Source of the DNA: Pseudidiomarina sp.
GTDB taxonomy: Bacteria > Pseudomonadota > Gammaproteobacteria > Enterobacterales > Alteromonadaceae
NCBI GenBank assembly: GCA_023260975.1
Contig: JALQTK010000008.1
Span: 1-64,000 of the forward strand
Direction: 5' to 3'
DNA: 64,000 bases
The position numbers and the translations under genes were made by a program. Below, one piece after another: positions 37,125-64,000 of this stretch (the stretch's first letter is position 1; each line of letters starts with the position of its first letter). The notes beneath the pieces were generated by a model. That model was not told where the DNA came from, did no database searches, and saw only the letters and a list, made by a program, of their open reading frames with translations.

Positions 37125-37187
37125 GTCATAATTGTAATAAATGTGACATCTAGCGGTCACTAAGCTGTCACACAACTGCAGTATCTT
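37125..37187 (+). promoter_or_regulatory. Pho box array and -10 upstream of the TonB operon
   Basis: GTCAT-like half-sites lie at 37125 (GTCAT), 37134 (GTAAT), 37145 (GACAT), 37156 (GTCAC) and 37167 (GTCAC); the last four are exactly 11 bp apart, as PhoB subunits require. A TATCTT hexamer at 37182-37187 begins 15 bp after the start of the last half-site, the same distance as at the pstS and phoB promoters in this window. Confidence 0.7.
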
Positions 37188-37224
37188 GCGCTCATCTTCC
37201 AAAAACGACGTGCAAGGTACGGTC

Positions 37225-37992
37225 ATGAGAATAGTCTTCATTCCTTCCATGCTGGTACTTGCGCTTAGTGCGAATATCGCCACAGCGCAAGATGCCACGC
37301 TAGAGCCGGTGGTTAACGCCGCCAACGCCATTACCCAATCGGCCCGCAGTTCGCAAGTGACGGTCGATACCATTGCCGATACCACCCAAGAGCGTATTCA
37401 ACAGTACAAGCAAATCATGCGCCAAATTGAAGGCCTTGAGGTGTATACCCAGCAACTACAAAAGCAAATTGATAACCAGAACAGCGAGAAAGCTGAGCTG
37501 AACGTATCGATTGACGAAGTGAGCGTGGTGGAGCGACAAATTAGCCCACTTATGTTGCGTATGATTGCTGCTTTAGATGCCTTTATAAGCTTGGATGTGC
37601 CGTTCTTAGGTAACGAGCGTAGCGAGCGTATTGCTAACCTTGAAGACTTAATGGAACGCGCCGATGTCGACGTTTCAGAGAAGTTTCGTCGGGTTATGGA
37701 AGCCTATCAAATAGAAGCTGATTATGGCCGCAATATTGAAGCCTATAACGGTGTGATGGATATCAATGGACAAGCGCAAGATGTCGAATTCCTGCGTATT
37801 GGCCGCTTGGTTCTAATTTATAAAACCCGTGACGGCAGCCAAATGGGCGTCTGGGACCAGCAGCAAAAAACTTGGCAAGCGCTGGACAGCAGCTACAGCA
37901 GTGGTGTGCAAGAAGCTATCCGTATTGCCCGTAAGCAGCTAGCCCCTGATCTGCTGATGTTACCTGTCACTTCTTCAGGCCGCGGAGAGTAA
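37225..37992 (+). CDS. DUF3450 periplasmic protein of the TonB system
   Basis: The 255-residue protein has a signal peptide ending ANIATAQ and then a long coiled coil (about residues 40-100), followed by a helical and mixed domain with LGNERSERIANL and LRIGRLVLIYKTRDGSQMG. This is the DUF3450 family, which is regularly encoded just before TtpC, ExbB, ExbD and TonB genes. It probably acts in the periplasm with TtpC, but its precise role is not known. The start ATG at 37225 has AAGG upstream; an earlier TTG at 37186 overlaps the promoter. It is the first gene after a Pho-box array and ends 3 bp before the next gene. Confidence 0.82.
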   Translation: MRIVFIPSMLVLALSANIATAQDATLEPVVNAANAITQSARSSQVTVDTIADTTQERIQQYKQIMRQIEGLEVYTQQLQKQIDNQNSEKAELNVSIDEVSVVERQISPLMLRMIAALDAFISLDVPFLGNERSERIANLEDLMERADVDVSEKFRRVMEAYQIEADYGRNIEAYNGVMDINGQAQDVEFLRIGRLVLIYKTRDGSQMGVWDQQQKTWQALDSSYSSGVQEAIRIARKQLAPDLLMLPVTSSGRGE

Positions 37993-37995
37993 GTC

Positions 37996-39357
37996 ATGAA
38001 ATTCATTAAATCAATCGCTCTGATCGTCGGTTTGTTAGCAACTACTGCACAGGCTGCCCCGCAACAACCAGTTGACCTTGACCAGCTGTTAAAGCAATTA
38101 CAGCAAGGTCAATATGCGCAATCTGAAGAAAATAAACTACGTGAAGCGCGTTTTCGCGCTGAAGCAGCGCAACAACAGCAATTGTTGCGTGAGGCGATTG
38201 CCCAGCGTGACCGCTTAGAGCGTTTAAGCGAACGTTTAGAAACGCAATTTGAAAAAAATGAAATTGAATTAGCTGCGATTGCCGAAACCTTGAATCAGCG
38301 CTTAGGTTCATTGCGCGAATTGTTTGGTGTTTTACAGCAAGTGTCTGGCGACACCGCGAGTAAATTGCAAAACTCGTATGTATCAGTTGAGTTTCCTGGC
38401 CGTAGCGAGCAATTAAGTGCGTTAGCGAAAAAAATGGGCAGCAGCTCCAAGCTCGCCTCAATTAACGAAATTGAGTCGGTATGGCTAGCATTACTGCAGG
38501 AAATGACTGAATCCGGCAAAGTGAGCCGCTTCAACACCCAAGTCACCTTGGCAAATGGTGAGAAAGTCGCTAGCGATGTGGTGCGGGTTGGTACCTTTAA
38601 CATGGTTGCTAATGGCCAATATCTGGAATTAGTACCTGGCACTGATAGCGTGGCTGAACTGATTCGTCAGCCATCATCGCGTTATCTAACTACCGCGGAT
38701 GATTTGCAGTCGGCACAACCGGGTGAGCAAGTGAAATTTGCCCTCGACCCGACCGCTGGCGCTATTCTTGGTTTGTTAGTACAAGCACCGAGTTTAGGCG
38801 AGCGCATTGACCAAGGCGGCACGGTTGGTTATGTAATTCTTGCCCTGGGTGCGATTGGCTTATTGATTGCCCTCGAGCGCTTTGTCAGCCTTACCCTGAT
38901 GAGTGGTAAAGTTTCGCGTCAGCTGAAACAAACTGAAACCCGCACCGACAACCCACTGGGTCGTGTGATGGCGGTGCAAGACAAGTATCCACAAGTCGAT
39001 ACTGAAACCCTGGAGCTGAAACTGAGTGAAGCGATTTTGCGTGAGATCCCAAGTATCACTCGCAACCTAACCTTCATTAAGATTATTTCAGTGGTCGCGC
39101 CATTAATGGGCTTACTCGGAACCGTAACCGGTATGATCAACACCTTCCAGGCGATTACCCTGTTTGGTACCGGCGATCCGAAACTAATGGCCGGTGGTAT
39201 CTCACAAGCCTTGGTCACTACCGTATTAGGTTTGGTCGTGGCGATTCCGATGACCTTGCTGTTCGCCTCGCTGAATACCCGCAGCCGGGCCATTGTGCAT
39301 GTGTTGCAGGAACAAGCATCAGGCATTATTGCGGAGCGGTCTGAGCGGAGGCACTAA
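37996..39357 (+). CDS. TtpC-like MotA/TolQ/ExbB family protein with periplasmic domain
   Basis: The 453-residue protein has a signal peptide (to about residue 20), a coiled-coil periplasmic part (about residues 25-110), a further periplasmic domain, and a C-terminal MotA/TolQ/ExbB proton-channel domain with three membrane helices (from about residue 270) carrying APLMGLLGTVTGMINTF. This is the architecture of TtpC, an extra ExbB-like subunit needed by TonB2-type systems of Vibrio and relatives. It is likely to extend the energy-transducing complex across the periplasm. The gene is 3 bp after DUF3450 and 2 bp before exbB. Confidence 0.88.
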   Translation: MKFIKSIALIVGLLATTAQAAPQQPVDLDQLLKQLQQGQYAQSEENKLREARFRAEAAQQQQLLREAIAQRDRLERLSERLETQFEKNEIELAAIAETLNQRLGSLRELFGVLQQVSGDTASKLQNSYVSVEFPGRSEQLSALAKKMGSSSKLASINEIESVWLALLQEMTESGKVSRFNTQVTLANGEKVASDVVRVGTFNMVANGQYLELVPGTDSVAELIRQPSSRYLTTADDLQSAQPGEQVKFALDPTAGAILGLLVQAPSLGERIDQGGTVGYVILALGAIGLLIALERFVSLTLMSGKVSRQLKQTETRTDNPLGRVMAVQDKYPQVDTETLELKLSEAILREIPSITRNLTFIKIISVVAPLMGLLGTVTGMINTFQAITLFGTGDPKLMAGGISQALVTTVLGLVVAIPMTLLFASLNTRSRAIVHVLQEQASGIIAERSERRH

Positions 39358-39359
39358 CA

Positions 39360-39884
39360 GTGATTCTGAGCGAATTCTACGGCGCTATCCAAGACTTCGT
39401 CGAAACTGGCGGCAATGTATTGGTAGTCATTGGCGTGCTGATTTTTCTCATGTGGCTGATGATCCTAGAGCGTATTTTTTACTACCTCAAGGGTCATCAA
39501 CAGGCCAAACAGGCTGCACTCTCGAGCTGGCAGCAGCGCGCTGATAAGTCATCCTGGCACGCGGAGCAAATTCGTCAGGCGACAATTTCTCGAGTGAGTC
39601 TGGCGCTTGGTGGCAACTTGCCCATATTGCAGGCATTAGTCGCCTTATGTCCGTTGCTCGGCCTGATGGGTACGGTCACCGGTATGATTGAAGTATTTGA
39701 CGTAATGGCTGTAGCCGGCACCGGTAATGCGCGCTCTATGGCGGCAGGGGTGTCGAAAGCCACTATTCCCACCATGGCTGGCATGGTCGGGGCATTGTCA
39801 GGAGTATTTGCTGCCACCTGGTTACAGCGTACCGCCAAGCGTGAACGGTTGAAATTAGAAGACCGCTTATTGCTTGAACATTAA
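39360..39884 (+). CDS. exbB: ExbB-type biopolymer transport protein
   Basis: The 174-residue inner-membrane protein has three helices and the ExbB/TolQ signature LCPLLGLMGTVTGMIEVFDVMA. With ExbD it forms the proton channel that energises TonB. It is short (E. coli ExbB has 244 residues), typical of the second-type ExbB found beside TtpC. The start is GTG, only 2 bp after the TtpC stop, so translation is likely coupled. Its proton-path residues in the last helix (GMVGALSGVFAATW) are in place. Confidence 0.9.
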   Translation: MILSEFYGAIQDFVETGGNVLVVIGVLIFLMWLMILERIFYYLKGHQQAKQAALSSWQQRADKSSWHAEQIRQATISRVSLALGGNLPILQALVALCPLLGLMGTVTGMIEVFDVMAVAGTGNARSMAAGVSKATIPTMAGMVGALSGVFAATWLQRTAKRERLKLEDRLLLEH

Positions 39885-39915
39885 TTGCGCCACCACAGAT
39901 TAAAGCGAGTTCGAT

Positions 39916-40323
39916 ATGAAACAGCATTTTGCTAATTTGATTGATGAAGAAGATACCCAAATTGATATGACGCCCATGCTTGATGTGGTGTTCATCATGT
40001 TGATCTTCTTTATTGTTACCGCATCGTTTGTAAAAGAGGCCGGTATTGATGTGAACCGCCCTGATGCCGCCACTGCGGTGCAAAAAGACCGCGCTAATAT
40101 CCTGATTGCCATTAGCGATAAGGGTGAAATTTGGATTAACAAACGGCAAGTTGATGCACGCGCCGTACAAGCCAACATTGAACGGTTGTATGCAGAAAAC
40201 CCACAGGGTTCGGTGGTTATCCAGGCCGATAAACTCGCTACGACCGAACGCTTAATTCAAGTGATGGATGCTGCCCGCGCCGCTGGGGTGTTTGACGTGT
40301 CCATTGCCACACAAGAAGACTAA
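39916..40323 (+). CDS. exbD: ExbD-type biopolymer transport protein
   Basis: The 135-residue protein has a short cytoplasmic N-terminus, one membrane helix and a periplasmic domain. The start of the helix, DMTPMLDVVFIMLIFFIV, carries the conserved Asp that relays protons in ExbD/TolR. The periplasmic part contains KGEIWINKR and the VVIQADKLA strand. With ExbB it powers TonB. It lies 31 bp after exbB and 2 bp before tonB. Confidence 0.93.
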   Translation: MKQHFANLIDEEDTQIDMTPMLDVVFIMLIFFIVTASFVKEAGIDVNRPDAATAVQKDRANILIAISDKGEIWINKRQVDARAVQANIERLYAENPQGSVVIQADKLATTERLIQVMDAARAAGVFDVSIATQED

Positions 40324-40325
40324 CT

Positions 40326-40934
40326 ATGATGCGTGTTCTGGCAGCATTTGCATTAGCCTTAGCAGTCACCTTGGGGTTGTTCTATTTAATGCAATCCCTT
40401 ATTACCGGTGGTGAAGGCGCAATGAGCGAACCACCGAAAGGATCGATGCTGGACTTTGTTCGGGTCAAGCCAGAAGAAGTGGTGCAACAAAAAGATCGTA
40501 AGCCTAAGCGTCCACCAGAGCCAGAGCAGGCGCCACCTGATTTACCGCAACCGCAATTTGATCCAGCGGTTGCTAATGTTGAGGGTGAAGGGTTTGATTT
40601 TAGCACCCAAGTGTCGGCTGATACTGCTTTGACCGGTGGTTTGGGTCTAGATACTAGTGACGGCGAGTATTTGCCGATTGTGAAGGTGCAAGCGGTGTAT
40701 CCGCGTCGCGCCTTGCAGCGCGGTATTGAAGGTTATGTGGTGGTTGAATTTACCGTGACTAAACTTGGCACTGTCCGTGATCCGCGGGTGGTTGAAGCAC
40801 AGCCTCAAGATATTTTTGACCAAGCGGCCATGGATGCAGTGCTGAAGTTTAAGTACAAACCACGCGTGGTTAATGGTGAAACGGTTGAAGTGGAAGGCGT
40901 GCAAAATCGCCTTACTTTTGAGTTGGGAGGATAA
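40326..40934 (+). CDS. tonB: TonB energy transducer
   Basis: The 202-residue protein has an N-terminal membrane helix (about residues 4-21), a short Pro/Glu/Lys-rich stretch (PKRPPEPEQAPPDLPQPQ) that spans part of the periplasm, and the TonB C-terminal domain with YPRRALQRGIEGYVVVEFTV and FKYKPRVVNG. The linker is much shorter than in E. coli TonB, as in TonB2-type proteins, and could be compensated by TtpC or DUF3450. It contacts TonB boxes of outer-membrane receptors. It lies 2 bp after exbD and 1 bp before the TPR gene. Confidence 0.92.
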   Translation: MMRVLAAFALALAVTLGLFYLMQSLITGGEGAMSEPPKGSMLDFVRVKPEEVVQQKDRKPKRPPEPEQAPPDLPQPQFDPAVANVEGEGFDFSTQVSADTALTGGLGLDTSDGEYLPIVKVQAVYPRRALQRGIEGYVVVEFTVTKLGTVRDPRVVEAQPQDIFDQAAMDAVLKFKYKPRVVNGETVEVEGVQNRLTFELGG

Positions 40935-40935
40935 T

Positions 40936-42198
40936 ATGCGCCACGGTTTACTCGTTATTTTAACGCTGAGTATTTTAGCGATTTTCCCGGCCGAGTTACT
41001 AAGCCAAGAACGTAAGCGCACGCCGGCGCTGCGGGAACAAGTTTATAGCCAGTTATCGCGCGCTCAGCAGTTAGCTGACGGTGGTGATATTCAGGCCGGT
41101 TTAGCCGTGTTGGCTGCGGTCGAAAGTAAACTCAAAAGTATGAATAGCTATGAACGAGCGATGCTATGGAACTTCTATGGCTTCATGCATTATGGCCAAG
41201 ACGATATCACCACGGCCATCAGCTATTTCAGTAAAGTAGTTGAAGAAGACCCCATTCCTGATGCGCTATTGCAAGGTACACTGTTCAGTTTGGCGCAATT
41301 AGCGCTAGGCCAAGAGCGCTATCAAGATAGCTTGGATTACTTAGCCAAATGGCAACAAGTTGTTGGTGGCGAGCCACAAGCAAAAGCTTTGGTTTTGCGT
41401 GCACAAGCGCTGTATCAAATGAAGCGCTATGATGAAGCCCTGCCACCTATTGTGGCGGCTATTGAGGCCAGTGATAAAGCCGGTCAACGACCAGATGAAA
41501 ATTGGTATGTGTTAGCCCGTGCTATTTATTTTGAACTTGACCAAATTGATCGCGTCGCTGAGGTTTTGGTGCAAATGATCAAGCACTATAACAAAGCCGA
41601 ATACTGGGTTCAGTTGGCCGGTGTATGCGCGCAGTTAGGTGAAGACAAGAAGCAATTAGCGGTATTAGAGGCGGCGCAGGTGCAAGGTTATCTGACCAAA
41701 GGCCAAGATATTCTTAACTTGGCGCAGGCTTATTTTGTTAACGATGTGCCGTATAAAGCCGCAGTGACCCTGGCGCAAGCGATTGCTGATGGAAAAGTCG
41801 AAGCTAATTTACGTAACCTCAAATTATTGGCGCAGAGCTGGGTCGCGGCGCGAGAAACCGACAAAGCTGTTGCGGCGTTAAGTCAAGCTGCAGCGCTCAG
41901 TGATGATGGCGAACTTGATGCCCAACGTGCCCAAGTGTTGTTGAATGCAGAGCGTAATGACGAAGCTATGCTGGCTGCAGAACAAGCCCTTGAGAAAGGT
42001 GGTTTGAAGCAACCCGGTAACATGCACTTGGTGATTGGTATGGCGGCATTGAACAAAGCGGACTTTAATGTCGCTTTAAAAGCCTTCGCTGCTGCTAAAC
42101 AATTTGATGAAGTGCGTCGTACTGCCACCCAATGGGAGCGTTATGCCGGTGCAGAAAAAGAGCAAGCCGAACGCATTGAGGCATTGAAGCAGTCATAA
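40936..42198 (+). CDS. Periplasmic tetratricopeptide-repeat protein of the TonB system
   Basis: The 420-residue protein has a signal peptide (to about residue 24) and several TPR-like helical pairs, such as MLWNFYGFMHYGQDDITTAI and RAQALYQMKRYDEALPPIVA. The start ATG at 40936 has GGAGG 6 bp upstream; an in-frame ATG 21 codons earlier lies inside tonB. TPR proteins at the end of DUF3450-TtpC-ExbBD-TonB operons are common in alteromonads and are thought to be scaffolds for the complex. It ends in a CAGTCATAA that doubles as the first Pho-like half-site of the porin promoter. Confidence 0.85.
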   Translation: MRHGLLVILTLSILAIFPAELLSQERKRTPALREQVYSQLSRAQQLADGGDIQAGLAVLAAVESKLKSMNSYERAMLWNFYGFMHYGQDDITTAISYFSKVVEEDPIPDALLQGTLFSLAQLALGQERYQDSLDYLAKWQQVVGGEPQAKALVLRAQALYQMKRYDEALPPIVAAIEASDKAGQRPDENWYVLARAIYFELDQIDRVAEVLVQMIKHYNKAEYWVQLAGVCAQLGEDKKQLAVLEAAQVQGYLTKGQDILNLAQAYFVNDVPYKAAVTLAQAIADGKVEANLRNLKLLAQSWVAARETDKAVAALSQAAALSDDGELDAQRAQVLLNAERNDEAMLAAEQALEKGGLKQPGNMHLVIGMAALNKADFNVALKAFAAAKQFDEVRRTATQWERYAGAEKEQAERIEALKQS

Positions 42199-42286
42199 AA
42201 ACGACATGCTAGCGTCACAAATAAGTCAAAAAAATGCCATAAAGTCATAAAACTGTCATAAATGTGCCATATCCTTAGCGCATACG
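42192..42286 (+). promoter_or_regulatory. Multiple Pho boxes and -10 upstream of the porin gene
   Basis: Half-sites at 42192 (GTCAT), 42203 (GACAT), 42214 (GTCAC), 42225 (GTCAA) and 42236 (GCCAT) are 11 bp apart. After an 8-bp step a second set follows at 42244 (GTCAT), 42255 (GTCAT) and 42266 (GCCAT). A CATACG -10 candidate at 42281 lies 15 bp after the last half-site. This is the richest Pho region in the window. Confidence 0.8.
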
Positions 42287-42341
42287 GCAGAAGTTTGCTA
42301 TGACTTCTGTGTCGATTTTCTTATGACTTGGTGGCAATTTT

Positions 42342-43277
42342 ATGAAAAATACTCGACTTTCAGTACTTGCTGCGGCCTTAACTGCCGTGTTTCAGCCGGC
42401 GTTTGCTGCTGACGAAACCGTGAGCTTTGATTTCTATGGCCAAGCTAATGTGGCATTGCGTTATGCCGACCTAACCAGCGCGAATGAAACCGAACTGGTC
42501 AGTTATGCCTCTCGCATTGGCGTTAAAGGTGGTAGCAAACTTGAAAACGGTGTTGAGGTAATTTACCAGCTCGAGTGGGAAGTTGACTTAACCGACTTAG
42601 GTGGTGATGACAATTTAAAGTCACGTAATCAATTCGTTGGTTTGAAGGGTAACTTTGGCGAATTAACGGTTGGTCGCCGCGATACTGCGGTGAAATATTT
42701 GCAGAGTGGTTTTGACCCGTTTGCCGATTATGAAGGCGATATCAAAAATATTTTTGCTGGTAAAAACCGCACCAGTGACACCATTTCTTATTTTACCCCG
42801 TTATTTGATGAGTGGCAGTTTGCCGCCAGTTATGTGCTTAGTGAAGATGCCCTGGTAGACGATGGCAAATCACTCACCGTCACCTATGGTGATAAAAAAT
42901 TAAAACGGACCGATTTTTATGTTGGTGCTGGCATCGACCGTGATGTCAATGGTCGTGACATTGAGCGTGTTGTGGCGCTCACTAAACTAGCGACGACGAC
43001 AGTCGGTTTTATGTATCAAGATCAGCAGCGCGTTGATGGTACGGCGCAAGCCGATGGTTTTGTCATCAATGCCGTGCATCCGCTGGGTGATTTTAGCTTA
43101 AAAGCGCAATACCAGTTGCTCGACAGCGGTAATGGCGATCGCTCGTCAATTGCCGCGGGTATCGATTATAAACTGGGCGCCAAGACGACACTATATGGCT
43201 GGTACACCGGTCAAGATTTCGACAATCTTGATGCTGAACAGCGCTTTTTCGCGGTCGGATTATTGCATAAGTTTTAA
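42342..43277 (+). CDS. Gram-negative porin, predicted phosphate-starvation inducible
   Basis: The 311-residue protein has a signal peptide ending FAADE and a 16-strand-porin pattern: FDFYGQANVALRYAD at the start, RNQFVGLKGNFGELTVGR, the constriction-loop-like FAGKNRTSDTISYF, and a C-terminal strand ending in Phe (VGLLHKF). It forms a diffusion pore in the outer membrane. The multiple Pho boxes upstream indicate a PhoE-like role in phosphate or anion uptake when phosphate is scarce; substrate preference itself cannot be read from sequence. It follows the TPR gene by 143 bp and appears monocistronic. Confidence 0.88.
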   Translation: MKNTRLSVLAAALTAVFQPAFAADETVSFDFYGQANVALRYADLTSANETELVSYASRIGVKGGSKLENGVEVIYQLEWEVDLTDLGGDDNLKSRNQFVGLKGNFGELTVGRRDTAVKYLQSGFDPFADYEGDIKNIFAGKNRTSDTISYFTPLFDEWQFAASYVLSEDALVDDGKSLTVTYGDKKLKRTDFYVGAGIDRDVNGRDIERVVALTKLATTTVGFMYQDQQRVDGTAQADGFVINAVHPLGDFSLKAQYQLLDSGNGDRSSIAAGIDYKLGAKTTLYGWYTGQDFDNLDAEQRFFAVGLLHKF

Positions 43278-56614: not shown

Positions 56615-59600
56615 TTAGAACTTGTAGTTGATACCTACACGCATTTCCCACAGTGATGGACCGACTACACGGCCCTGGCCTGGATCACCCAAGAAACTCT
56701 CAAATACAAGTTTGTTGTTATCATCTAACCTAGCGTTAACAACGCGTTGAATTTGCGGGAAGCCTGGTTGATACAATACGCCCCAATCGCTGTTCAGCAA
56801 GTTACCGACGTTTTCGATGACGAAGAACGCGCTGGCTTTATGGCCATCAGCAAATGCTGGTAAATCTTGAGTAATTTTAAGGTCGAACTTGCTCCACCAG
56901 CTGCCGTAGAAGCTGTTACGTGGAGCGATACCGCCGGCATACTTATCAAGACCTGATGCGTTAACAAAGGCAAAGAATGCATCGGTATCGAAACCGTCAG
57001 CGAAAGTTACCTTCGAGTCAGATACGCCAGTTGGTACGTACAGCAATTGACGACCAAATGCTGGGTCACCGAATAAGTCTGATCGGTTGCTGTTGGTCCC
57101 GTTAAAGGCATAGCTGTATGGGCGACCTTTGTTAGCTTGACCGAACAAGCTGAAGCGAGTTTCGTAACCATCAAAGAACTCAGTGCCGTAGGCTACACGT
57201 AAGGTGAAGCGATGCGGGATCTCATAGTTACCTGGTGCAGAGGCATAGTAGCCCATGTCCGAGGTAGCAGTTTGAGTAAAGTTCGAGCCGGCTACTGATG
57301 ATGCCATGCTTTGGCTATCTTCAGACTCAGTGTAAGCATAAGCAAGTGACCAGTTTAAGCCGAAGTCATATGAGTGACTTAAGGCCATTGACAGGTTCAG
57401 CTGGCTACCTGCATCTGGTGCGTTGGTTAACATATAGTCACCTTCACGGCCAGTTGGGGTATCGTACACTGGGCGACCATCAGAAGCAGTACCTACTTTA
57501 ACAAACGCTAGGTCAACCAATGATGCAGTGTTTTCACGCTTGGTGTAAAGAATGTCACCGGTTAATACCATTTCGTTAGCGAACTGGTAGGTTGCACCGA
57601 GTGAATATTTCCACTCACTTGGGATCTCAAAGTTTGGATCCAAAGCGTTTACAGGGCTGTTTCCACTGGCGTTAGTCACTTGGTCATACAATGACGAAGG
57701 TACGTTGTACAGTGGGCGACCTTCGCCGCTCAACGCTGCAGTATTTAAGTTAACGTTACGCTGGTTAACCTGAATCTGGGTAATACCGTCGTTTTGGAAG
57801 TTGTTAGCAATCCAGACGTTCGGGTTACCACCTGAGTACAGACCGAAACCACCACGTACTTCTAACTCAGCAGTTGGTTTCCAGTTAAAGCCAACCCGTG
57901 GTTGCAACAAATCAGCACCATCGAAGTTAGTACGGTTACTGAAACCGTAGTCGTTTAGGAAACGTGAGTTTGCACGTGGTAAATCGTCACTGCTGTACCA
58001 GTCGTAACGAACACCGTAGGTCAACGTCAAGTCATGCTCAAACATGTAGTATTCATCTTGCAAATACAACGTATTGATAGCGTACGAGAAGTCACCGGCA
58101 GCTTCGCGAGCATTGTGTGTACCAGCTGCGTTGCCGTACCAAATACGGGCAGCGATACCGGCTTCGAAGTTGTCAATTGAGCTAAACTCATATTCACCAC
58201 CACGCGCGTGCTGCACGAACATGTTGAATACTGACAATTCTTCGCGCTCAAAACCAGCGGTCAGTACGTGGTCACCTGAGAAATAGGTACCCGCTACTTT
58301 GAAGAAGGTGGTGTCGTAGTTCAGTTCGTTGGCTTGACGTGAATCGTCAGCACCTAAGAACACTCGTGAACCGGCTGGGGTAATGATGCGGATTTCACCG
58401 ATCTCTTTCGGGCCTAAGGTCACTTGGCTGTTAACTACTTCTGAGTAACCAGCACGAACTTCAGTTGAGAAGTTGTCGGTCCAGTCTGAGTAGATTTCAG
58501 CAACAGTCGATTTCAACTCAGTACCACGGTTGTAATAGTGGTTAGAGAATTCATAGGTGGTGTTACCAGTGTCTGACTCACGCAGGTTACCGCCATCGTT
58601 CCAGTTATAGGTTAACGCAGCACGGTGATCAGCGTTGATCTGCCAATCTAATTTAACCAATAATTTTTCATCTTCAACCGGTGAAGAGGCAATTGGTGTA
58701 CCTGGCTCATAGCCGTATACATCACGCGCGATTTGCGCGATACGGTCGATTTGTGCTTGAGTCACGCCACGTACTGGAATACCAGCGGTTGCATCATCTT
58801 CAGCACCACGGTCAAATTTCACCGCACCTTCGTATTTTTCATAGGCGGTAAAGAAGAACAATTTATCTTCTAAAATTGCGCCACCGACGTTGAAGCCGTA
58901 ACGTTTTTCTTTGTACTCACCGTTATCAAGGTCAGTATCTTCGATTTTGTCGCCACGCATGTCTTGGTTGGTGAAGTCATAGAATAAACCACCAAACAGC
59001 TCGTTTTCGCCTGATTTAGTAACGGCGTTGATGTTACAGGCAGTGAAACCGCCGTATTTGACATCAAACGGTGCCAATTCGACGTTAACTTGCTCAATCG
59101 CATCGTAAGCAAACGGCATACGCTCAGTTGGGTAACCGTTAGCGTTCAGACCGAAGTTATCGTTTAAGCGCACACCATCAACAGTTAAGCTGTTGAAACG
59201 TGGGTTTGCGCCACCACACTGTACGCCATCACCGAAGCTTTCATCGATGTAGATACGTGGGTCGATACGAATGATATCTTTGATATCACGGTTGATTGCT
59301 GGTGATTCTTCTAAATCGCGCAGCGAGAAGTTGCTTGCTGGGCCAGTACCGCCAGAGTTGTTGTTCAGAATAGATTGGCCAGTTACCGCAATACGTTCAA
59401 CGTTGCTTTCTACCACGACGTTTACGCTTGCTGTCTCACCAAGTGTTAAGAACACTTCTTGTTGCTTGGTTGCGCCAGTTGCTGGGTCGGTAACAGTAAC
59501 GATGTATGGACCACCAACCGACAAGCCACGCGCTGAGAATGAACCTGTTTCGTTGGTTGTTAAAGTACGTGATGCACCGGTACGTGAGTCAGTGATTACT

Positions 59601-59746
59601 ACCTGAGCGTTAGCAAGGGTGTTGCCAGCGCCAGAAGTAATAACACCGCGTAACGAGGATGCAGTATCTTGAGCATACGCAGTCGCAGACAAACCGATTG
59701 CTAAGGCAACGGCAGCGGCTAAGCGGCTTGGTTTACTATTGAACAT
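56615..59746 (-). CDS. Oar-like TonB-dependent receptor with carboxypeptidase-regulatory domain, Pho-regulated
   Basis: The 1043-residue receptor has a signal peptide ending TAYAQ and an N-terminal carboxypeptidase-regulatory-like domain (SSLRGVITSGAGNTLANAQV, about residues 29-110). A TonB-box-like RIAVTGQSI segment comes next, then a plug with SLTVDGVRLNDNFGLN, and a long beta-barrel ending RVGINYKF. This is the Oar/OmpA-related architecture common in alteromonads and myxobacteria. Two GTCAT half-sites 11 bp apart precede it. It is divergent from the phosphoesterase gene, suggesting import of phosphate-rich or nucleotide compounds under phosphate starvation; the ligand is not known. Confidence 0.88.
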   Translation of the reverse strand: MFNSKPSRLAAAVALAIGLSATAYAQDTASSLRGVITSGAGNTLANAQVVITDSRTGASRTLTTNETGSFSARGLSVGGPYIVTVTDPATGATKQQEVFLTLGETASVNVVVESNVERIAVTGQSILNNNSGGTGPASNFSLRDLEESPAINRDIKDIIRIDPRIYIDESFGDGVQCGGANPRFNSLTVDGVRLNDNFGLNANGYPTERMPFAYDAIEQVNVELAPFDVKYGGFTACNINAVTKSGENELFGGLFYDFTNQDMRGDKIEDTDLDNGEYKEKRYGFNVGGAILEDKLFFFTAYEKYEGAVKFDRGAEDDATAGIPVRGVTQAQIDRIAQIARDVYGYEPGTPIASSPVEDEKLLVKLDWQINADHRAALTYNWNDGGNLRESDTGNTTYEFSNHYYNRGTELKSTVAEIYSDWTDNFSTEVRAGYSEVVNSQVTLGPKEIGEIRIITPAGSRVFLGADDSRQANELNYDTTFFKVAGTYFSGDHVLTAGFEREELSVFNMFVQHARGGEYEFSSIDNFEAGIAARIWYGNAAGTHNAREAAGDFSYAINTLYLQDEYYMFEHDLTLTYGVRYDWYSSDDLPRANSRFLNDYGFSNRTNFDGADLLQPRVGFNWKPTAELEVRGGFGLYSGGNPNVWIANNFQNDGITQIQVNQRNVNLNTAALSGEGRPLYNVPSSLYDQVTNASGNSPVNALDPNFEIPSEWKYSLGATYQFANEMVLTGDILYTKRENTASLVDLAFVKVGTASDGRPVYDTPTGREGDYMLTNAPDAGSQLNLSMALSHSYDFGLNWSLAYAYTESEDSQSMASSVAGSNFTQTATSDMGYYASAPGNYEIPHRFTLRVAYGTEFFDGYETRFSLFGQANKGRPYSYAFNGTNSNRSDLFGDPAFGRQLLYVPTGVSDSKVTFADGFDTDAFFAFVNASGLDKYAGGIAPRNSFYGSWWSKFDLKITQDLPAFADGHKASAFFVIENVGNLLNSDWGVLYQPGFPQIQRVVNARLDDNNKLVFESFLGDPGQGRVVGPSLWEMRVGINYKF

Positions 59747-59874: not shown

Positions 59875-59906
59875 ATTGTCCTATCCAATTATGACAAGGT
59901 CATGAC
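59875..59906 (-). promoter_or_regulatory. Pho box and -10 of the Oar-like receptor gene
   Basis: On the minus strand GTCAT begins at 59906 and again at 59895, exactly 11 bp apart (TGTCATGACCT-TGTCATAATT). A GACAAT -10 candidate begins at 59880, 15 bp further on. The transcript would have a leader of about 120 bp. Confidence 0.75.
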
Positions 59907-60107
59907 ACTTCAACCAATCATGTCTTGCTAACTTGATACATCATTAGAACGATTGAGATGGCGTGTACACAGGGCGTAGAGCGAAATATGCCGTTTGTGT
60001 AATTTTCGTGACAGCATTTTATACAAAAAAACCACTAATTGCCCAGAAAAGTTTCATGATTTGTAGTATTTTCTTGTCAGCGAAACATTTTATGAGCTGG
60101 AGCGATT
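59907..60107. other. Rest of the 361-bp gap between receptor and phosphoesterase genes
   Basis: The gap from 59747 to 60107 holds the receptor leader and its Pho box (59875-59906). The remaining 200 bp are AT-rich and contain single CTGTCA-like matches (minus strand at 60009-60014, plus strand GTCAG at 60076) and a TATACA at 60020-60025, but no paired half-sites at 11 bp. No gene, RNA or convincing promoter for the phosphoesterase was recognised. Confidence 0.5.
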
Positions 60108-61319
60108 GTGGCTAAAATTTTTGTTCAAGCTATTTTTTGCATGGTAATACTCAGCACCACCGTTGCATGCGAGCCTAAACCTATGTCTGAAGCTACGGCG
60201 CCAGCAGTCGCTATTCGAGTCGCTGTATACAATGTGAGTATGGATGCCAGCAATTATATCACCAACGATAAGCTCGCCAGCGAGGGTGCCAAAGCACTGT
60301 CCAATGCGCTAGCTCAGCAGCATCCGCAGATTCGTGCCATCGCTGAAATTATTCAGCATACTCGCCCCGATATCGTGGTTTTGAATGAATTTGACTATGA
60401 CCCATCGGGCCAAGCGCTTGAAAGCTTTCGCAGCGCTTACTTAGCGGTCAGCCAAGGCGGCGAATCACCGCTTGAGTTCCCCTATGCGTACACCGCTCCG
60501 GTAAATACTGGCGTGATGAGCCCGTTTGATTTGAATCGCGATGGCCGTATCAGCGCCGATGCGAATGATGCCTGGGGCTATGGCTGGTATCCCGGTCAAT
60601 ACGGTATGGTGGTGCTTTCTCGTTACCCAATCGAACACCACGCTGTGCGAACCTTTCAGCAGTTTAAATGGGCCGATATGCCCGGTGCCTTGCGACCCTT
60701 AATGCCCGGTACCGCCGAATACTGGTACGATGATACGGTATGGGCGCAGCTACCGTTGAGCTCCAAGTCGCATTGGGATGTACCTATTGATGTCAACGGC
60801 CACACGCTGCACCTGTTAGTTAGTCACCCAACCCCACCCGTGTTCGATGGCGAAGAAAATCGCAATGGTCGGCGTAATCACGACGAGGTAAGATTTTGGG
60901 CCGATTATCTGCGCCCCAGCCACGCCGATTACATTTATGATGATGCTGGCCAGCGCGGCGGTTTAGCTGAGCAAACCCGCTTTGTGGTCGCCGGTGATTT
61001 AAATGCATCGATAGAGGGTGATGAAAACGTCCCCGGCACCATTGAGCTGTTGCTCGACCATCCGCACATTAATGCCACTGTGACTCCTGCTAGCCGCGGT
61101 GGTGCAGCACATAGCCCGAATAACGACTATGGCCGCTATCACACTGCCGGTTGGCGCAAACGTGCCGATTATTTATTGCCGTCAACGTTTGGTATTGAAG
61201 TAATTAATGCTGGCGTGTTTTGGCCTACTGCCGATGAGCCAAAAGCTGAATTAGTAGCGCAACGTGGTCGTTCATCGGACCATCGCTTGGTATGGATGGA
61301 CATTTTATTGACCCCATGA
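60108..61319 (+). CDS. Lipoprotein endonuclease/exonuclease/phosphatase (EEP) family protein
   Basis: The 403-residue protein is a lipoprotein (TTVAC, lipid on Cys21) with the EEP fold: VAVYNVSMD, metal-binding PDIVVLNEFDYDP, VVAGDLNAS and the C-terminal GRSSDHRLVWMD with the catalytic His. Substrates of this superfamily include nucleic acids, phospholipids and other phosphodiesters or monoesters. Residues 141-151 form an EF-hand-like loop (DLNRDGRISAD), so calcium may be bound. The start is GTG with TGGAG upstream. Its place between a Pho-regulated receptor and phoB suggests phosphate scavenging. The exact substrate is unknown. Confidence 0.85.
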   Translation: MAKIFVQAIFCMVILSTTVACEPKPMSEATAPAVAIRVAVYNVSMDASNYITNDKLASEGAKALSNALAQQHPQIRAIAEIIQHTRPDIVVLNEFDYDPSGQALESFRSAYLAVSQGGESPLEFPYAYTAPVNTGVMSPFDLNRDGRISADANDAWGYGWYPGQYGMVVLSRYPIEHHAVRTFQQFKWADMPGALRPLMPGTAEYWYDDTVWAQLPLSSKSHWDVPIDVNGHTLHLLVSHPTPPVFDGEENRNGRRNHDEVRFWADYLRPSHADYIYDDAGQRGGLAEQTRFVVAGDLNASIEGDENVPGTIELLLDHPHINATVTPASRGGAAHSPNNDYGRYHTAGWRKRADYLLPSTFGIEVINAGVFWPTADEPKAELVAQRGRSSDHRLVWMDILLTP

Positions 61320-61368
61320 CATGTAATTGTCATAGATTCATAAAATTGTCATAAAGTATCTTGATAAT
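61318..61368 (+). promoter_or_regulatory. Pho boxes and -10 of phoB
   Basis: GACAT at 61318 and GTCAT at 61329 are 11 bp apart; after an 8-bp step TTCAT (61337) and GTCAT (61348) are again 11 bp apart. The -10 GATAAT begins at 61363, 15 bp after the last half-site. The first half-site overlaps the EEP stop codon. This implies autoregulation of phoBR. Confidence 0.8.
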
Positions 61369-61399: not shown

Positions 61400-62086
61400 A
61401 TGTCGAGAAAGATACTAATTGTTGAAGACGAAGCGCCAATTCGGGAAATGTTAAGTTTCGTCATGGAACAGCACGGTTATCAAGCGTTAGAAGCCGGTGA
61501 TTACCAAGCTGCGCTCGATAAAATCGTGGAGCCGTTACCCGACATGATATTGCTTGATTGGATGTTACCGGGTGGTTCAGGTATTCAGCTAGCGAAAAAG
61601 CTCAAGGGCGAAGACTTCACCAAAAATATTCCTATCATTATGCTTACCGCCCGCAGCGAAGAAGAAGATAAAGTCCGTGGCTTAGAAGTGGGCGCGGATG
61701 ATTACATCACCAAACCATTTTCACCAAAGGAATTGATGGCGCGCATGCGTGCCGTGTTTCGTCGTGTCGCTCCAACAGCGCTAGACGAGACCCTCGAGGT
61801 GCAAGGTCTTAAGTTAGATCCGGTATCGCATCGCGTTACCGCTTTCGATGATCGCGTTGATATGGGCCCAACCGAATTTAAATTGCTGCACTTCTTTATG
61901 ACTCACCCAGAACGGGTGTATAGTCGGGAGCAATTACTCGATCACGTTTGGGGAACCAATGTCTACGTCGAAGACCGTACTGTCGATGTGCACATCCGCC
62001 GTTTACGCAAAGCCTTGGCGCTGCATGAACATGACCGCCTGGTGCAAACCGTGCGCGGTGTTGGCTACCGTTTCTCGAATCGATAA
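61400..62086 (+). CDS. phoB: Phosphate regulon response regulator PhoB
   Basis: The 228-residue regulator has a receiver domain with the acidic pair Glu9-Asp10, phospho-acceptor Asp53 (LLDWMLPG) and Lys105 ([10 protein letters not shown]), and a winged-helix OmpR-type domain with [19 protein letters not shown]. The [17 protein letters not shown] start equals that of E. coli PhoB, so the ATG at 61400 is used here rather than upstream ATGs at 61361 or 61394. AGGTG lies before it. PhoB activates Pho-box promoters, five of which appear in this window. Confidence 0.96.
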
Positions 62087-62103: not shown

Positions 62104-63399
62104 ATGGATAAACGCTATTCAGTAGTTTTCATTGTTCGTGGCTTCTTTTGGTATGTAATTCCCTTGGCCATAGTCGGGCTATTCGTCGGCCAGTTCTGGC
62201 CGGTCATGGTACTGGGACTAATAGCAGCACTGGTCTGGCACTATTATTATCAATACAAATTGGTTGATTGGTTGTGGCATCGCCGCACTATGTTGCCACC
62301 TACCGCTGCCGGTAGCTGGAGTTACATATTTGATGGCATCTACAGTACTCAACGCCGCAGTCAGCAGCGTCGCCGTGCATTAGCGCGGTTATTGCGCCGG
62401 TTTCGTGAAGCCTCGGAAGCAATCCCCGATGCTGCTATTGTATTTCGCCGCGATGGTGGCTTGGTTTGGTGTAACAAGTTGGCACAATTCTATTTCGGTT
62501 TGAAATGGCCAGCAGATACCGGTATTCGCCTCGCTAACTTAATTCGCCATCCTGAGTTTGTAGCTTATTTGAGCAAGGGCGATTTTAGCAACGACATCGT
62601 ATTTCCATCGCCAGTCCGCGACGATATTGAGCTCGAGTTAAGAGTGATGCCGTTTAGTGATGATGAATATTTGCTGATGGCGCGTGATGTGACCCAGTTA
62701 AAACAACTTGAACAAATGCGCAAAGATTTCGTCGCGAACGTATCGCATGAGCTAAAAACGCCATTGACGGTTATGCAAGGCTACCTGGAAATGCTCGCTG
62801 ATTCGGATAGTTTGCCGCCGGCAATAATGACTAAAGCGATGCGTGATATGAGCAGTCAAACCCAGCGTATGCGTGGTCTGGTTGATCAACTGCTGGCGCT
62901 ATCGCGCATGGATGTGGTGCGTACTGATATCTTTGAGCGCACGGTTGATGTGCCGGCGCTATTACAGAATTTGCAGCGTGATGCGCAGCAGCTCAACCAA
63001 GATAAACAGCATCAATTGCAGTTTGAGATTGGCGCAGAAAAAATGCATGGCCATGAAGATGAATTGCGCAGTGTATTCGCTAATTTGATTAGTAATGCGA
63101 TTCACTATACGCCCGCCGGTGGTGCGATTACCGTGCGCTGGCAACGCATCGGCCAGCAAATGGAATTTTCGGTAACTGATAATGGCCCAGGTATTCCGGC
63201 CGAACACATTCCTCGTTTAACTGAGCGTTTCTACCGTATCGATAAAGACCGCAATAGCTCCAAAGGTGGCAGTGGGCTGGGTTTGGCGATTGTCAAACAA
63301 GCCGTTGAAAATCACCATTGTAAGTTGCTGATTGATTCTGTTGTTGGGCGTGGCAGTAAATTTAGCGTGCGCGTGCCAGAAGAATTAGTGCTGCGTTAG
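62104..63399 (+). CDS. phoR: Phosphate regulon sensor kinase PhoR
   Basis: The 431-residue kinase has two adjacent membrane helices (about residues 12-46) with almost no periplasmic part, a basic linker, a PAS domain (about residues 97-195), HisKA with His215 (NVSHELKTP) and HATPase (NLISNAIHYT, DNGPGIP, GSGLGLAIV). This matches PhoR, which controls PhoB through the Pst/PhoU phosphate signal. It follows phoB by 17 bp. No PhoU gene is in the window, but pstS starts downstream. Confidence 0.96.
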   Translation: MDKRYSVVFIVRGFFWYVIPLAIVGLFVGQFWPVMVLGLIAALVWHYYYQYKLVDWLWHRRTMLPPTAAGSWSYIFDGIYSTQRRSQQRRRALARLLRRFREASEAIPDAAIVFRRDGGLVWCNKLAQFYFGLKWPADTGIRLANLIRHPEFVAYLSKGDFSNDIVFPSPVRDDIELELRVMPFSDDEYLLMARDVTQLKQLEQMRKDFVANVSHELKTPLTVMQGYLEMLADSDSLPPAIMTKAMRDMSSQTQRMRGLVDQLLALSRMDVVRTDIFERTVDVPALLQNLQRDAQQLNQDKQHQLQFEIGAEKMHGHEDELRSVFANLISNAIHYTPAGGAITVRWQRIGQQMEFSVTDNGPGIPAEHIPRLTERFYRIDKDRNSSKGGSGLGLAIVKQAVENHHCKLLIDSVVGRGSKFSVRVPEELVLR

Positions 63400-63413
63400 G
63401 GTGCTGCTGTGGC

Positions 63414-63476
63414 ATGACAGATTTGTGACAGTTTTTTGCACTTTGTCATAATACTGTCATATTGACCTTCTACACT
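63414..63476 (+). promoter_or_regulatory. Pho boxes and -10 of pstS
   Basis: On the plus strand GTCAT at 63445 and GTCAT at 63456 are 11 bp apart, with -10 TACACT at 63471-63476, 15 bp after the start of the second. On the minus strand a second pair (ATGACAG at 63414-63420 and GTGACAG at 63425-63431) forms an oppositely oriented Pho box with the same 11-bp spacing. Both lie between phoR and pstS. Confidence 0.82.
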
Positions 63477-63529: not shown

Positions 63530-64000
63530 ATGAAATTCAAATCAGCGTTCTTGTCAGCCTCACTCGTTGCGTTGTTGAGCATATCAGCCAACGCACAGAA
63601 AGTAACCGACGACCTGCCGGTATACGAAAAAGTAAGCGGCCTATCAGGCAACTTATCATCGGTCGGTTCAGACACCTTAGCCAACATGATGACCTTTTGG
63701 GCCGAAGAATTTAAGCGCCTGTACCCGAATGTGAACATGCAGATTCAAGCCGCTGGTTCATCGACTGCGCCGCCAGCTTTGACTGAAGGCACGTCAAATT
63801 TTGGGCCAATGAGCCGCGCTATGAAGTCAAAAGAAATTGAAGCGTTCGAGAAGCGTCATGGTTACAAGCCGACCGAAGTGCGTGTGGCGATTGACGCATT
63901 AGCGGTATTTGTTCATAAAGATAACCCCATCGAAGGCATGACCATTGCTCAAGTCGACGCAATTTTCTCTTCAACCCGCTTATGTGGTGCAGACCAACAA
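63530..64000 (+). CDS. pstS: Phosphate ABC transporter substrate-binding protein (cut by window edge)
   Basis: The frame opens at ATG 63530, with GGAG upstream, and remains open through the last base (157 codons visible). It begins with a signal peptide ending SANAQ. The [21 protein letters not shown] block, [21 protein letters not shown] and [15 protein letters not shown] are typical of PstS-type periplasmic phosphate-binding proteins, where the SSTAP loop and the Asp contact phosphate. The C-terminal half lies beyond the window. The Pho boxes and phoBR upstream confirm the assignment. Confidence 0.92.

Follow-up and report, generated by a model that had tools for sequence, protein, structure and literature searches.

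TonB motors have been studied mostly in iron uptake. Here we describe a six-gene TonB motor operon and the porin gene that follows it, both located in a 64,000-nucleotide stretch of DNA from Pseudidiomarina sp. (contig JALQTK010000008.1, positions 1 to 64,000, hereafter the window; contig C175 of a 1.9-Mb assembly that is 86.6% complete). Our comparisons indicate that operon and porin are very likely under PhoB control, and that the motor is likely dedicated to a lipoprotein-receptor pair encoded elsewhere in the genome.

Several described systems resemble this locus in part. The TonB2 system of Vibrio vulnificus, ttpB2-ttpC2-exbB2-exbD2-tonB2-ttpD2, whose first and last genes are essential for TonB2 function, has the gene set and gene order of the window operon, but carries a Fur box and is induced under iron limitation (PMC6957404), whereas Pho boxes precede the window operon and Fur matches there do not exceed chance. 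Because of this absence, we do not class the window motor as a Fur-controlled TonB2 system, although it would work like TonB2. TonB3 of the same species is also a six-gene motor and is not iron-regulated; its operon starts with a receptor gene (PMC6957404). In Pseudomonas aeruginosa, the phdA promoter transcribes exbB2, exbD2, tonB4 and the putative porin gene PA0696, is active in low phosphate and carries a pho box to which PhoB bound in electrophoretic mobility shift assays (PMC4971064, PMC7035377); this promoter also needs the sigma factor VreI (PMC4971064). The exbB2-exbD2-tonB4 unit (PUMA3/sigma VreI regulon), described as an uncharacterised putative TonB system (PMC4971064, PMC7035377), is similar to our locus in having TonB energising genes and a porin gene at a low-phosphate promoter, there PhoB-bound. 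It differs in that its three motor genes lie downstream of pdtB, whereas the window contains a six-gene TtpC-type set after an MscS-type gene, and in that its pho box is upstream of the minus-35 element and VreI is required, no lipoprotein-receptor partner appearing in the accessible text. Given this precedent, the idea of a TonB motor controlled by PhoB cannot be called new; the earlier note on this DNA had called a phosphate-dedicated motor unusual, which stands, provided that the Pseudomonas case is acknowledged.

Lipoprotein-receptor pairs responding to phosphate are also on record. In Caulobacter, the lipoprotein ElpS is induced by phosphate starvation and is paired with the TonB receptor CC0171, and homologues were noted in Shewanella (PMC2996285); we liken this pair to the one studied here by description and not by sequence. 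The CC0171 receptor was, in contrast, reported as constitutive, and ExbB has no occurrences in the text (PMC2996285). In Flavobacterium, PusCD and the FI lipoprotein-TonB-dependent transporter cluster PUSIII are phosphate-depletion-induced outer-membrane TonB transporters and lipoproteins, and the FI proteins are stated to resemble pectate lyases weakly, in agreement with the beta-helix fold predicted for our lipoprotein; that organism belongs, however, to Bacteroidetes, and ExbB and ExbD have no occurrences in the text (PMC8115612).

No six-gene TtpC-type motor under PhoB was found among the titles, abstract openings and passages returned by full-text searches of an open-access library, subscription journals lying outside the scope of the search. 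What is new here, as read from sequence, is the six-gene type combined with a Pho promoter predicted to act directly and with a receptor whose occurrence follows that of the motor.

The operon occupies positions 37225-42198 on the plus strand, and its genes were identified, as others in the window, by Pfam domain matches: ttpB, encoding a DUF3450 protein (37225..37992; PF11932, 288 bits; start ATG at 37225); ttpC, whose ExbB-like product has an N-terminal part weakly resembling DUF3450 (37996..39357; PF01618, sub-threshold PF11932 and position in a tree); exbB (39360..39884; PF01618); exbD (39916..40323; PF02472); tonB (40326..40934; PF03544, with 2k9k, TonB2, as best solved chain); and ttpD, encoding a TPR protein (40936..42198; TPR families). 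The next gene on the same strand encodes a Porin_4 porin (42342..43277; PF13609), so that the order given in the earlier note, DUF3450-TtpC-ExbB-ExbD-TonB-TPR and then porin, is borne out. This order, the ExbB-type channel domain of TtpC and the presence of ExbD and TonB_C domains are those of TtpC-type six-gene TonB systems, and not those of the three-gene PUMA3/sigma VreI-type unit.

Upstream of ttpB, four putative PhoB half-sites (37134..37171, plus strand) are found exactly 11 bp apart, namely GTAAT at 37134, GACAT at 37145, GTCAC at 37156 and GTCAC at 37167; compared with GTCAY, the last two are perfect and the first two carry one mismatch each. A minus-10 candidate, TATCTT (37182..37187), begins 15 bp after the G of the last half-site, as the earlier note had read. 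These are GTCAY-type 11-bp direct repeats ending 10 bp before a minus-10, as at Pho-regulon sites, and this 10-bp gap to a TATNNT minus-10 is common to the operon, pstS and porin promoters. No TTGACA-like minus-35 occurs in the operon promoter, where the hexamers at 16-18 bp spacing are CTAAGC, ACTAAG and CACTAA. A strict scan of both window strands for four in-phase half-sites (at most one mismatch each and three in total) followed by TANNNT at a distance of 15 bp from the final G returned two matches, at 37167 and at 42225, the latter inside the porin array and paired with a TANNNT other than the minus-10 of the porin promoter; none was returned from 20 mononucleotide shuffles of the window.

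A 19-bp PhoB matrix was then built from promoters of relatives (20 pstS and 25 phoB; 27 distinct sites), with the window excluded. Over both window strands, its top three matches were the porin (27.3), pstS (27.2; 63443..63461, plus strand) and phoB (25.1; 61335..61353, plus strand) promoters, and the promoters of the operon and of a receptor gene at 56615-59746 on the minus strand scored 15.8 each. When the 250-bp regions upstream of the 52 gene starts in the window were ranked, these five occupied the first five places, the sixth scoring 9.8; since phoB and pstS promoters are of the kind used to train the matrix, their high rank is no independent proof. Across the 1.9-Mb genome, the exact pattern GTCAY-N6-GTCAY-N10-TANNNT occurs in 6 places, against 0 for a reversed control: before the TonB operon, the porin gene, pstS, a gene for alkaline phosphatase (PF00245, with its ATG about 30 bases past the pattern), a lipoprotein-receptor pair on contig C99 and a candidate small RNA. 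Five of the six precede phosphorus genes or parts of the motor system.

Scanning relatives with a PhoB matrix, as the earlier note had suggested, showed that the Pho boxes are conserved with the operon, some weak promoters aside. Orthologues of the operon are present in 24 of 25 relatives of the same genus and in 7 of 9 other genomes of the family, with the gene order ttpB-ttpC-exbB-exbD-tonB-ttpD kept in 27/27 relative regions. The 31 orthologous promoters scored 8.5-24.6 (at least 14.6 in 21/24 of the genus and at least 14.2 in 7/7 of the family), compared with averages of 2.2 (sd 3.5) and 2.8 (sd 3.3), respectively, in shuffled sequence, and with -1.2 to 9.4 for the promoters of 13 paralogous DUF3450-TonB operons. 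In a wider collection, the best 80 of 350 loci (hereafter the named loci), 51 of the 58 usable regions upstream of ttpB scored at least 12, a value reached by 1.2% of shuffles, and none of the regions before ttpC (0/58) or exbB (0/57) did so. Several observations weigh against PhoB control: the highest score among 2,400 genus shuffles was 20.3, attained once; three promoters are weak (L024, 11.7; L025, 10.9; L026, 8.5), that of L026, where the matrix chose another place, being under the best paralogue (9.4); the best match is off the promoter spacing in L031, L032 and L119, although visual inspection of L032 also shows a well-placed pair; a further orthologue region, L330, has a score of 10.8; and 7/58 of the ttpB promoters in the named loci are below 12.

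With regard to iron, the best Fur match before the window operon was 12/19, a value reached or exceeded in 35 of 300 shuffles, and among the operon promoters of 27 relatives the best matches (10-13) were within the range of shuffles (up to 14 in 540 shuffles); this lack of a Fur box above chance fits control by PhoB and not by iron. Matrix scores, conservation, paralogue controls and the genome-wide pattern together agree with the earlier note in assigning operon and porin to PhoB, and we consider such control very likely.

The porin promoter displays a longer array of seven putative half-sites (42192..42259, plus strand): five in 11-bp phase (GTCAT 42192, GACAT 42203, GTCAC 42214, GTCAA 42225, GCCAT 42236) and, after an 8-bp step, two more (GTCAT 42244, GTCAT 42255), the most upstream one falling within the final codons of the TPR gene. 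The multi-site array proposed in the earlier note is therefore present, with seven sites instead of up to eight, since GCCAT at 42266 overlaps the minus-10 candidate TATCCT (42270..42275); likewise, the 15-bp distance to the minus-10 holds only when 42255 is counted as the last half-site. Of the 20 genus regions retrieved, 19 have the porin next to the operon, and a strong Pho array (at least 18.9) is found in 19/19. Porins of the PhoE/OprP type are phosphate-regulated under PhoB control, and the window porin, predicted to be controlled in the same way, differs from them in being a Porin_4 protein. The porin leader (42276-42340) is predicted to fold into a stem-loop directly after the minus-10, and a hairpin was predicted in all 5 parsable leaders of 20 (the window and 4 relatives).

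The receptor served by this motor is most plausibly found outside the window. In two other genera, a protein of about 930-950 amino acids without Pfam match and a TonB receptor of about 900 amino acids precede the operon near phoB/phoR; it shows no significant similarity to the window receptor at 56615-59746, as far as this second protein, the receptor, is concerned. In a set of 35 genomes, operon and 900-residue receptor family were both present in 32 and both absent in 3 (G004, G028, G033), with 0 discordant cases. Among 295 genomes of the order, 25 have both, 21 the receptor only, 0 the motor only and 249 neither, where an operon orthologue is defined by a ttpB match of at least 359 bits (the next value being 273, and the cut being chosen in this analysis) and receptor presence by E values of 1e-100 or better. 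The 10-kb flanks of the named receptor loci, some of which end early at contig ends, contain the six motor genes in 57/80, phoB in 37 and both in 31. In Alteromonas and Glaciecola relatives a common order is phoB-phoR-pstS-lipoprotein-receptor-motor, and in Pseudoalteromonas loci with both, the motor comes first.

A match to the lipoprotein family lies directly upstream of the receptor in 22/22 regions, and a lipobox could be read in many lipoprotein rows as well as in the window's own genome; this arrangement, in which a lipoprotein with a lipobox immediately precedes its TonB receptor, is that of the ElpS/CC0171 type. In the own genome, the pair and its promoter are located at G000:C99:21394-25874(-), with GTCAC, GTCAT and TATTCT at the spacings of the exact Pho pattern. 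Of 78 scored lipoprotein promoters in the named loci (2/80 were omitted, their best match starting past residue 120), 49 reached at least 12 on the gene strand, a number that rises to 64 when either strand is counted (shuffles 1.0% and 2.2%), and in 22 further regions 10 and 15 did so, respectively; as the promoter windows of L153, L184 and L185 miss a promoter seen in another scan, these counts are low estimates. Upstream of the lipoprotein gene (e.g., L186, L193, L219), a second, reverse Pho box is often present about 26 bp before the forward one; no such double box was noticed in front of the motor operon.

The lipoprotein family (examples L153:4111-6870, L169, L267 and L268) varies in length, with about 910-940 amino acids in many named loci, about 535 from ATG in the own genome and about 1360 in L267 and L268. 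One member scanned and the L154 homologue had no Pfam match, and two members had no NCBIfam match. An AlphaFold model of 916 residues (mean predicted local distance difference test score 80.3; predicted template modelling score 0.53) displays two strand-rich repeats, and its fold compares with beta-helix alginate lyases, epimerases and tailspikes (Z up to 22, about 270 residues); this modelled likeness gives no function. Alignments of lipoprotein and receptor matched no solved structure by sequence at the thresholds used, and a single-sequence structure search with the lipoprotein gave three weak matches only (best E 0.008).

Integrating these findings, we regard with good confidence the proposal that the operon is a PhoB-induced TtpC-type motor which would power a lipoprotein-receptor pair for the uptake of a phosphorus compound. 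The proposal builds on gene content, promoter architecture and its conservation, specificity, the separate motor clade described below, and the co-occurrence and adjacency of the pair; from these we infer that PhoB binds and induces, that motor and receptor pair physically, and what kind of cargo is carried. Under phosphate scarcity, PhoR would phosphorylate PhoB, which on 11-bp direct repeats would replace the minus-35 element and recruit RNA polymerase, the motor being co-produced with the porin, PstS and alkaline phosphatase. A second PhoB promoter would yield a surface lipoprotein with two beta-helix domains together with the TonB-dependent receptor; TtpB-TtpC-ExbB-ExbD-TonB-TtpD would turn proton-motive force into receptor opening, and the receptor would pump into the periplasm a phosphorus compound whose size or scarcity puts it beyond the reach of porins, with periplasmic phosphatases and the Pst transporter finishing the uptake. 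In such a division of labour, the porin would pass small anions and the TonB route larger or scarcer molecules. More broadly, we lean towards the view that Alteromonadaceae and relatives possess a dedicated outer-membrane phosphorus pump, in which a PhoB-controlled motor evolved with one beta-helix lipoprotein-receptor pair. This would suggest, in Alteromonas-related marine bacteria, an actively powered route for phosphorus compounds that is switched by phosphate and not by iron, often encoded as a single phoB-phoR-pstS-lipoprotein-receptor-motor locus. If true, it would go beyond the exbB2-exbD2-tonB4 precedent by adding the receptor that belongs to the motor and an instance of a motor specialised for a single nutrient, and it may give that uncharacterised unit of P. 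aeruginosa a context; it also makes testable the cargo of phosphate-induced TonB receptors and the specialisation among several TonB systems in one cell.

The likely dedication of the motor to the pair has points against it. The receptor family lacks the motor in 21 of 46 receptor-bearing genomes of the order, which implies that it does not need such a motor everywhere; the three absences among related genomes represent few independent events; motor and receptor are distant or on separate contigs in the own genome, G011, G012, G014 and others; and the matrix gives the lipoprotein promoter of the own genome no more than 7.0, though the exact pattern fits. The first of these points would suit a motor that is PhoB-induced and yet general, providing extra energy in phosphate starvation to all TonB receptors, whether for iron, sugars or phosphorus. 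TonB motors often serve many receptors, and the window contains two receptor genes, of which one has a Pho box. Such a general motor is nevertheless rather unlikely, considering that every motor-bearing genome examined contains the receptor (32/32 and 25/25), that the motor is no more than 10 kb from it in 57/80 loci, and that Pho-type motors form a clade apart from the paralogous one: in an unrooted 58-row TtpC tree, a single branch supported at 100/100 separates 48 Pho-type motors from 10 paralogous ones.

The earlier note had paired the motor with the Pho-boxed receptor within the window, an Oar-like TonB-dependent receptor (56615..59746, minus strand; CarboxypepD_reg, OMP_b-brl_4, weak Plug) whose Pho box is at 59890..59908 on the same strand. 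Motor and receptor share the window, 25 of 30 loci of this receptor family have a Pho box scoring at least 12, and by coordinates the receptor is near phoB in the window and in other genus genomes such as G014, G010 and G021. Relatives of this receptor occur, however, in genomes devoid of the operon, namely G004 (58% identity) and G033 (37-38%), whereas the other receptor family matches operon presence in all 35 genomes, tracking the motor exactly. We consequently demoted this pairing, which we consider distinctly improbable, in favour of the lipoprotein-receptor pair.

It is even less probable that the Pho boxes are real while a second regulator, either a repressor at an inverted repeat or an extracytoplasmic sigma factor, sets the signal. 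An inverted repeat (37188..37213, plus strand) is conserved between the minus-10 and the start codon of the operon, starting directly after the former and stopping just short of the Shine-Dalgarno sequence, and the PhoB-bound phdA promoter of P. aeruginosa also needs VreI (PMC4971064). Nevertheless, the sequence of the repeat varies with some compensating changes, which makes an RNA hairpin likelier than a fixed operator; the covariation is modest, with 9 cells changed on both sides over 3 pairs and 13 distinct sequences, and the repeat is possibly a hairpin at the 5' end of the mRNA, within the 5' untranslated region. In addition, the operon promoter has the half-site-to-minus-10 spacing of 10 bp found at pstS and the porin, and no Fur match. 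Lastly, mere chance likeness to a Pho box, for which the single mismatches at 37134 and 37145 would speak, is close to negligible in view of the conservation, the controls and the genome-wide specificity.

Apart from the Pho-type motors and their paralogues, 11 motors (L319-L329, from f20, f21, f25 and G226) have an open reading frame of 813-884 amino acids just before ttpB, which by its length could be a receptor gene. These motors have no Pho box (at most 6.3 on the gene strand), match neither the lipoprotein nor the receptor family, and may represent a third class of ttpB-ttpD motors, possibly TonB3-like. Identity with Vibrio TonB3 was considered with L319-L329, which lack a Pho box, as stand-ins for TonB3. 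Three other motors, L331-L333, scored 8.8, 0.5 and 2.4 on the gene strand, with 13.7 on the other strand of L333.

The remaining phosphorus-related genes of the window are clustered towards its end. Between the Oar-like receptor and phoB, an Exo_endo_phos-family protein is encoded at 60108-61319, a plausible phosphorus-scavenging enzyme, and its upstream region is outside the 14 best matrix scores listed for the window. On the plus strand follow phoB (61400..62086; Response_reg and Trans_reg_C, with matches in 35/35 genomes), phoR (62104..63399; PF11808) and pstS (63530..64000), which is cut by the window end and was identified by position and by homology to a PBP_like_2 protein of L154. The forward pstS box is closely preceded, at 63413-63442, by Pho-like sites on the reverse strand, which score 16.5 and 14.1.

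Outside the window, the sixth place with the exact Pho pattern corresponds to a candidate PhoB-controlled small RNA (L334:1501-1610; G000:C11:43223 onward), whose promoter has two GTCAY half-sites 11 bp apart and TAATAT 15 bp after the second G. The candidate spans about 65 nt, comprising the core CTGAGATCTGGTTGT and a GC-rich hairpin with a run of T after it, and no Rfam family scored above its threshold. It was matched in 21 of 26 genus genomes, often over 19-21 bases only, and the exact 15-base core is present in 20 of the 21 matched loci.

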